Below, piece after piece: positions 24,052 to 39,961 of a stretch of 64,000 bases of DNA. This stretch comes from Methylobacterium haplocladii (GTDB lineage: Bacteria; Pseudomonadota; Alphaproteobacteria; Rhizobiales; Beijerinckiaceae). The stretch is taken from contig NZ_BJZT01000011.1 of assembly GCF_007992175.1 (NCBI RefSeq), positions 1-64,000 of the forward strand, given 5' to 3'. Numbering within the stretch: position 1 is the stretch's first letter; every line of letters begins with the position of its first letter. Made by a program: the position numbers and the translations under genes. The notes beneath the pieces are model-generated. The model had not been told where the DNA came from, made no database searches, and saw only the letters and a program-made list of their open reading frames with translations.

Positions 24052-24204
24052 CGAACGGCTTCCTGGGTCCCTGTAAGGCCCGATACGACTAAGGTGTTCA
24101 TTCCATAAACCTGCGTCTTGGTAAACACAGGGTTAAAATCCCCTCGGTGCGCCCGAGCACACGGCTCGGTAGACAGGATCGCCCGCTCACAGCAAAGTGT
24201 TGCG

Positions 24205-25101
24205 ATGATCGAGCGCCCCGCGCACCCGCCCTCCGATTTCGAACCGCCCTTCGCCGTCGATGAGCCGGCCATCCACGCGGTTCCCTTCGTGTTCAACACG
24301 CCGCATTCCGGCGCGGTCTATCCGGATCACTTCCTCTCGGCCTCACGTCTCGATGCGCTGACGCTCCGGCGCTCGGAGGACGCCTATGTCGACCGGCTGT
24401 TCGCCCCTGTCGTCGGGCTCGGCGCCCCGCTCATGCGCGCGAACTTCCCGCGTGCCTATCTCGACGTCAACCGCGAGCCCTACGAGCTCGACCCGCGCAT
24501 GTTCGTCGGGCGGCTTCCGCCCTTCTCCAACACCCGCTCCATGCGGGTCGCCGGCGGCCTCGGCACCGTGCCGCGCATCGTGGCCGACGGGCAGGAGATC
24601 TATCGGGAGCGGCTGCCGGTCGAGGATGCGCTCGCCCGGATCGAACTGCTCTACAAGCCCTATCACCGGATGCTGCGCGGACTGATCCAGCGCACGGTCA
24701 AGACCTTCGGCAACGCGGTTCTGATCGATTGCCACTCGATGCCGTCGTCGAGCCTCGGCCGGGACGAGGACGCGAAGACCGAGATCGTGCTCGGCGACCG
24801 GTTCGGCACCGCCTGCGCCCCGGCCCTGATCGACGGCTTCGAGCATCGCTTCCGTGAGCACGGCCTCCGGGTGGTGCGCAACAAGCCCTATGCCGGCGGC
24901 TTCATCACCGAGCATTACGGCGAGCCGAACCTGTCCCGCCACGCCCTGCAGATCGAGATCAACCGCGCGCTGTACATGAACGAACGTACGCTGGCGCTCA
25001 CCGGCGGCTTCGGCGATCTGGTGGAATGTCTGACGCGGGTGGTCGGTACGATGGCCGCCGACTGGTCGGACTGGAGCTCCCGGCGGATGGCGGCCGAATA
25101 G
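24205..25101 (+). CDS. N-formylglutamate amidohydrolase family protein
   Basis: 298 residues of the N-formylglutamate amidohydrolase (FGase) family: FVFNTPHSGAVYP, the DAYVDRLF segment, ANFPRAYLDVNREPYELDPRMF and the VLIDCHSMPS block supply the metal and substrate residues, and HALQIEINRALYMNE is at the C-terminal side. The family releases formate from N-formylglutamate (histidine degradation) or acts on related N-formyl amino acids. No other hut genes are nearby, so the physiological substrate is open. ATG 24205 follows a weak AAAG-containing region; no better start is in frame. It ends 42 bases before the terminator of the opposite-strand sRNA. Confidence 0.85.
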   Translation: MIERPAHPPSDFEPPFAVDEPAIHAVPFVFNTPHSGAVYPDHFLSASRLDALTLRRSEDAYVDRLFAPVVGLGAPLMRANFPRAYLDVNREPYELDPRMFVGRLPPFSNTRSMRVAGGLGTVPRIVADGQEIYRERLPVEDALARIELLYKPYHRMLRGLIQRTVKTFGNAVLIDCHSMPSSSLGRDEDAKTEIVLGDRFGTACAPALIDGFEHRFREHGLRVVRNKPYAGGFITEHYGEPNLSRHALQIEINRALYMNERTLALTGGFGDLVECLTRVVGTMAADWSDWSSRRMAAE

Positions 25102-25142: not shown

Positions 25143-25171
25143 AAAAAAAAGGCCGCCCCGAAGGAGCGGCC
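25143..25171 (-). terminator. Rho-independent terminator of the sRNA
   Basis: The stem GGCCGCUCC/GGGGCGGCC with a UUC-containing loop is followed by a run of eight uridines on the minus strand. It also faces the end of the plus-strand amidohydrolase gene, but has no uridine run in that direction. Confidence 0.85.
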
Positions 25172-25220
25172 CGAAGTCTAGGGAGGAAACGCCCAAGAAG
25201 GGCTGCGAAACCGCGACGCC
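25143..25220 (-). ncRNA. mmgR: mmgR/alpha-r8-like small RNA
   Basis: On the minus strand the region has, in order, a small hairpin (GCCC-UUCUU-GGGC, 25191-25203), the ten bases UUUCCUCCCU (25180-25189) predicted single-stranded, and a strong terminator: an 8-9-bp stem GGCCGCUCC/GGGGCGGCC (25151-25171) followed by eight uridines (25143-25150). The UUUCCUCCCU core between a short hairpin and a Rho-independent terminator is the known signature of the MmgR (alpha-r8) sRNA family of alphaproteobacteria, which limits polyhydroxybutyrate accumulation in Sinorhizobium. The core is complementary to Shine-Dalgarno sequences. The 5' end is estimated, not determined. No coding gene on this strand could use the terminator. 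Confidence 0.72.
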
Positions 25221-25715
25221 ATCGCGATCCCGCAATGCAAAAGATACATTGCGCCGCACAAAGCGCAAGCGGCCCGGCAAGGAATATTCCCGCGCCCGGC
25301 GCATGGCTCGGCCGCGAGCGGCGCAAGCTATGCAAATCGACATGTGGCGCGATGGCGAAGTTGCCGTGGATTGTCCTGCCGTAGAACGTCATCCTGGTGC
25401 CATGGGGTCATTGACCGTCGATGACGCCGGGCAGGTTCTGGAGGCCGGCGACGAACGTCGAGTTTGGCTAGTGCCGTCACTCTGAAGTGTAAATCGGCTG
25501 GCACGCTTCGTGTTTATTGAACTTTGCAGTAATTCTGCTGCGGTTTCACCGACGGCGCGGCGGTATCGAGAATGAGAGGGATCTTTTTATCGTGAAATAG
25601 CGATCGATAAGCGTGTTCAGCCGTCCTTGAAAACACGTTTCGGCGTATCAGTCCGATCGGATCCTAAGGGGATGCCTTTCAAAGCATAAGTTTCGCGTAC
25701 AGCATCCTTCCACGC
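25221..25715. other. Gene-free stretch with an AT-rich half
   Basis: No credible gene is seen on either strand. The part from about 25485 to 25715 is clearly more AT-rich than its surroundings and contains promoter-like and partly palindromic runs (for example TATCG and CGATA around 25586-25612). The minus-strand side must contain the promoter of the sRNA. Short open frames here (for example 25249-25485 on the plus strand) have no recognisable content. Confidence 0.5.
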
Positions 25716-26576: not shown

Positions 26577-26632
26577 TGCATTGCAGCATTGCCGCACGGG
26601 GGCTTGCGGGCCTGGTCTCATCGACCCCGCAA

Positions 26633-39446: not shown

Positions 39447-39961
39447 TGTTTGATCCCCAGCGTTGTGCCCGATCGACGGCCAAGCTAGGCGATTCCGCAC
39501 TATCGGGATGTAGCGGCAAGGACACAGTCGCGCCGCACATTCGCCGAGGATTGGTTTCAGTCCATAAGTGTGCGGCGCAGCAAGACTTGACGTAGCCATT
39601 GCCGGCGGGAACGGCCGGGCCGACAGCTTCGCGGCGAGTCGCCGCCGGGCCGACAAGGTTTCGGTGTCGTCCGGATCAGCACGGGCGGTCGGACGGCGCA
39701 GCAGGGCAAGTCTCCGGGGGCGCGTGCGCGCCGCGACGATCAGCGCTCGGCGAGCTGCCGCGGGCATGGCGACCGGCACGCGTCGGCAGCGAGCGGGCCG
39801 CAACGTCGCCGGCTCTCCAAGGAATGGCAGTGTGAAGCTGTGCCCGTCCGATTGGATCGCGACCTGTCCGGCCGCGATGTCGCCGAGGGTGTCGATATCG
39901 GCTTGAACCGTGGGCGGATGCCGACGTGGCCGGTCCGGGCGTCCGGGCCGTCGAACGGCGT
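39447..39961. other. 515-base gap without a recognised gene
   Basis: The right flank of the second Omp gene is its leader (39447-39540). This resembles the leader of the first copy (38335-38420) with the same GATCCCCAGC, GTGCCCGATCG, AAGCTAG, GGGATGTAGCGGC and AGGACACA blocks in the same order. The rest (39541-39961) has several open frames on both strands that are arginine/alanine-rich with no known pattern; I see no gene there. Confidence 0.6.

Follow-up and report, generated by a model that had tools for sequence, protein, structure and literature searches.

A predicted alpha-r8/MmgR small RNA beside an N-formylglutamate amidohydrolase gene in Methylobacterium, with tandem PhaR-type operators in its putative promoter

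Judged from its sequence, the element on the minus strand of the window (the whole stretch of 64,000 nucleotides analysed here, from Methylobacterium haplocladii) is a real and ordinary member of the known alpha-r8/MmgR sRNA family, and is the amidohydrolase-linked, canonical copy of this trans-acting sRNA. The reading that we favor as the whole explanation, at a probability of about 0.78, is that of an alpha-r8/MmgR trans-acting sRNA with a PhaR-repressed promoter, whose decamer UUUCCUCCCU would block target translation together with Hfq. To the known family the present analysis adds a predicted 5' stem-loop and transcript start and the tandem PhaR-type operators; of these, the putative operator pair, seen in one copy per genome among the copies read, is the most useful addition. 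We found no experimental study of alpha-r8 in Methylobacterium in the searchable literature. The features discussed below are as follows.

25143..25233, minus strand: predicted full alpha-r8/MmgR sRNA, ~91 nt, with a predicted 5' end (Rfam match, covarying 5' stem and fold)
25205..25233, minus strand: 5' stem-loop, outside the Rfam model (covariation)
25191..25203, minus strand: short family hairpin GCCC-UUCUU-GGGC (Rfam match and fold)
25180..25189, minus strand: anti-Shine-Dalgarno core UUUCCUCCCU, unpaired (fold)
25143..25172, minus strand: Rho-independent terminator, stem 25172-25150 plus U-run to 25143 (terminator call and fold)
25264..25269, minus strand: -35-like CTTGCG (by eye, from ortholog conservation)
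25241..25246, minus strand: -10-like TATCTT (by eye)
25250..25261, plus strand: PhaR-type operator 1, TGCGCCGCACAA
25231..25239, minus strand: PhaR-type operator 2, TGCATTGCG, over the predicted start
24118..25101, plus strand: N-formylglutamate amidohydrolase gene, convergent neighbour (PF05013, 252.6 bits)
26491-25769, minus strand: DUF4142 gene, on the other flank of the sRNA locus

The Rfam covariance model RF00519 (suhB/mmgR) matched the minus strand at 25210-25135 over its full length (1-77) with 72.4 bits (gathering score, 41 bits), and this model, named by the initial annotation as the decisive check, upholds the assignment to the MmgR family made there. The assignment also agrees with the position beside an N-formylglutamate amidohydrolase gene, which the alpha-r8 gene adjoins in most species (PMC12559287). 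A hairpin, the exact decamer and a Rho-independent terminator had been claimed for the minus strand, and we located all three on it: the GCCC/GGGC hairpin, UUUCCUCCCU, and a 10-pair terminator stem followed by a U-run. The decamer occurs once in the 64 kb compared to 0.06 occurrences expected by chance, and the conserved 21-mer around it, GGGCGTTTCCTCCCTAGACTT, likewise has a single occurrence in the window, with 0 of 100 shuffles matching even at 3 mismatches. The predicted sRNA folds at -47.1 kcal/mol (z -4.2 versus shuffles), and the decamer (25189-25180), lying 3' of the weak hairpin, is unpaired in both the MFE and the centroid folds; it is constant in 41 aligned orthologs, themselves chosen by the decamer. 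Other Rfam families scored below their cut-offs on the same stretch and probably reflect the terminator and the CU-rich core.

An intergenic element between the DUF4142 and amidohydrolase genes, with a terminator at its end, could also be the 3' terminator or a processed 3' end of one of these two mRNAs rather than an independent gene, a reading that we regard as very improbable. The amidohydrolase gene lies on the wrong strand for such an origin, and the DUF4142 gene, the sole gene upstream of the sRNA on the minus strand, is followed by a hairpin of its own and then five T, ~500 bases before the sRNA. Because a separate terminator follows the DUF4142 gene and the plus-strand reading past the amidohydrolase gene contains no U-tract, the sRNA terminator serves no other gene, just as the initial annotation had held. 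In addition, the upstream operators and the 5' stem are conserved, and the same RNA is found at other places in the genome. Only marginally more probable is a cis-acting, convergent antisense RNA directed mainly at the amidohydrolase mRNA: the two genes are indeed convergent and the U-run ends ~40 bases short of the amidohydrolase stop codon, but the predicted RNA terminates before reaching the coding sequence, other loci hold paralogs with this core, and 17 of 80 amidohydrolase loci carry no alpha-r8 copy.

The trans-acting sRNA that we favor also extends further than first described. RNAalifold, applied to the alignment of 41 orthologs selected by decamer, recovered a 5' stem in addition to the two Rfam helices. 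Counted on its named pairs over 40 distinct orthologs, this stem showed two-sided changes in 11 of 12 pairs, with 81% of cells pairing, and its covariation score was 0.417, whereas shuffles gave 0.229 and sliding the partner gave no more than 0.133. The covarying stem at 25233-25205 therefore argues for a predicted RNA of ~91 nt with three stem-loops. Since this conserved stem-loop belongs to the RNA, the element is longer than the extent of 25143-25220 given initially, and the predicted transcript spans ~25233-25143. Transcription very probably begins near 25233, a position suggested by the -10-like TATCTT at 25246-25241; the -35- and -10-like boxes are weak, and a sigma-70 consensus scan detected no promoter at the sRNA start.

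Two PhaR/AniA-type operators lie 19 bp apart in the putative sRNA promoter. Operator 1 is a perfect match to TGCRNYGCASMA, the footprint-based Bradyrhizobium consensus (PMC6201568), with its core kept in orthologs, and its minus-strand dyad TGCGGCGCA (25258-25250) sits between the -35- and -10-like boxes. Both this dyad and that of operator 2, TGCATTGCG, which is also conserved, fit YGCRNYGCR, the core of the PhaR motif in S. meliloti (PMC12542648). Across orthologs the half-sites are kept and the middle bases vary. A core pair spaced 19-21 bp was present in 60 of 66 related promoters compared to 0.85% of random stretches from the same loci, although 60/66 overstates the independent evidence because orthologous promoters are related. 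It has been reported that in S. meliloti PhaR binds and represses mmgR, and that the motif is present in the mmgR promoter, which was examined by gel shift (PMC12542648). PhaR is encoded in the present genome together with four phasin-family matches, and TGCACTGCA occurs ~40 bp before the likely starts of two phasin genes. The sRNA promoter looks wired to PhaR, the sensor of polyhydroxybutyrate (PHB). In S. meliloti, mmgR is also subject to positive control by NtrC. Two more perfect TGCRNYGCASMA matches are found in the window, at 26577-26588 (upstream of the DUF4142 gene) and at 39571-39582.

In the proposed mechanism, the sRNA would be transcribed leftward from a promoter at ~25269-25241; PhaR would repress this promoter at low PHB, while PHB granules would titrate PhaR away and let the sRNA accumulate. 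The unpaired UUUCCUCCCU may then, with the help of Hfq, base-pair with target mRNAs at their purine-rich Shine-Dalgarno regions and so block translation. In Caulobacter, compensatory mutation demonstrated decamer-dependent repression of a target by SisA, with Hfq (PMC12559287), and since the same unpaired decamer and an hfq gene are present here, we infer by analogy a SisA-like mechanism. Other copies in the genome have the same core behind different promoters, so that different signals probably lead to one and the same output. The proposal ties PHB storage to post-transcriptional control in a concrete and testable way, in a methylotroph genus with industrial uses. It predicts, in a form easily tested, that the sRNA rises in an M. 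extorquens phaR mutant, the published transcriptome of which left out sRNAs by its own statement (PMC6520949).

The neighbouring amidohydrolase is most closely related to proteins of Methylobacterium and Methylorubrum (72-77% identity); the genome (4.63 Mb; window G+C 69%) is therefore that of a Methylobacterium in the broad sense, which fits the initial guess of a probable methylotroph. It holds four alpha-r8 copies over the Rfam cut-off. Besides the copy in the window, these are L002 on contig 39, L003 on contig 1 and L004 on contig 4, with neighbours assigned by eye as a TRAP-type substrate-binding protein, panB and gshB, respectively; L002 has one PhaR-type core, and L003 and L004 have none. 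Weak covariance matches elsewhere in the genome (L005-L008, at most 28 bits) lacked the decamer and were dropped. In six genomes of the same genus, 6 to 11 matches per genome were obtained at E 0.01, of which the weakest may be false positives, and among 149 genomes of the family 148 had a match, 143 of them above the cut-off. At 63 of 80 related loci the exact decamer lies past the 3' end of the amidohydrolase gene and on the other strand. At the other 17 (L050, L052, L058-L060, L066, L067, L069, L070, L072-L075, L077, L097, L099 and L105), among them those of M. goesingense, M. tarhaniae and M. terricola, no copy lies beside the gene, having been lost or moved. From seven Methylobacterium genomes a subset of the copies was fetched and compared, and in each genome one of these had the operator pair; in a second class of the copies read only the start-proximal core was present, and most of the remaining ones had neither. 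Three of the seven pair-bearing copies were not within 1.5 kb of an amidohydrolase gene.

The element resembles S. meliloti MmgR (RF00519, suhB) in its covariance match, decamer, hairpin and terminator, in its three stem-loops (described for MmgR in PMC7143759), and in a PhaR-type site between -35 and -10 (PMC8401924, PMC12542648), here recognized by sequence. It differs in its predicted length (~91 versus 77 nt), in having two operators where reviews of S. meliloti describe one dyad, and in the several copies per genome compared to one in S. meliloti (PMC12559287). Several copies sharing one decamer behind different promoters are likewise known for the alpha-r8 RNAs SisA-D of Caulobacter crescentus, and SisA also adjoins an amidohydrolase gene (PMC12559287). 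AbcR1 and AbcR2, Hfq-binding RNAs of the alpha-r15 family, similarly expose unpaired CU-rich anti-Shine-Dalgarno stretches, aimed in their case at uptake genes (PMC7143759). They belong to another family, which the suhB model fits partly (PMC7143759), whereas it matches the present element over its full length.

As has been suggested for S. meliloti, the RNA could chiefly serve to limit PHB through direct pairing with phasin mRNAs, but this narrower MmgR-like role seems unlikely to us. Deletion of mmgR in S. meliloti raised PHB and PhaP1/PhaP2 protein, as described in PMC8401924, and phasin genes and PhaR-type sites are present in this genome. However, that effect may itself be indirect, and the phasin start regions examined here pair with the core no better than ordinary genes, as 55 to 91% of the 44 window genes used as background score at least equally well. 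Pairing thus gave no support here for direct targeting of phasin mRNAs, a point of difference from what is suggested for MmgR, and of the initially proposed PHB link it is the part at the promoter, with its putative PhaR-type operators, that gained ground.

For the trans-acting sRNA that we favor, oxalate, acetate and central-carbon genes are, on weak evidence, better target candidates here than phasins. In the own genome no AGGGAGGAA site was found before an ATG. Perfect 8-base complements lie before the ATG of, among others, an oxalate/formate antiporter gene and a DUF485 gene in the own genome; in relatives they occur before the genes for oxalyl-CoA decarboxylase, AceE, malic enzyme and DctA. 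Most of these genes have a pairing energy within the background range; only the oxalyl-CoA decarboxylase start region of the own genome reaches the 2nd percentile of the background, and just 3 of 30 relatives retain the exact match at this gene. Carbon genes, in categories assigned largely by eye, made up 8 of 18 candidate targets compared to 2 of 17 with a control 8-mer (two-sided P 0.06), a hint that is only suggestive. It is a speculative, rather doubtful extension that the Methylobacterium alpha-r8 RNAs form a divided set with a common seed, in which one copy would read PHB via the tandem PhaR operator and the others would read other signals, together shutting off oxalate, acetate and C4 use, and not phasins, at the ribosome-binding site.

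A 23-mer, GGGAGGAAAGTCCGGGCTCCATG, at 11820-11842 of contig 24 is present in all seven genomes (the own and six relatives); it resembles a part of the RNase P RNA, and the 8-base complement of the sRNA core within it is probably a coincidence. In contrast to SisA-D, a CrfA-like sponge was not found in a limited search of the AGGGAGGAAA sites of the own genome. Seven such sites exist, four of which are alpha-r8 genes read in antisense. Among the three others, the one on contig 59 (L279:1501-1552), just past a gene, has AGGGAGGAAA, the decamer complement, directly before a strong hairpin, CAAGACGGGGGTGCG...CGCACCCCCGTCTTG, with no U-run, and is a possible sponge-like element.
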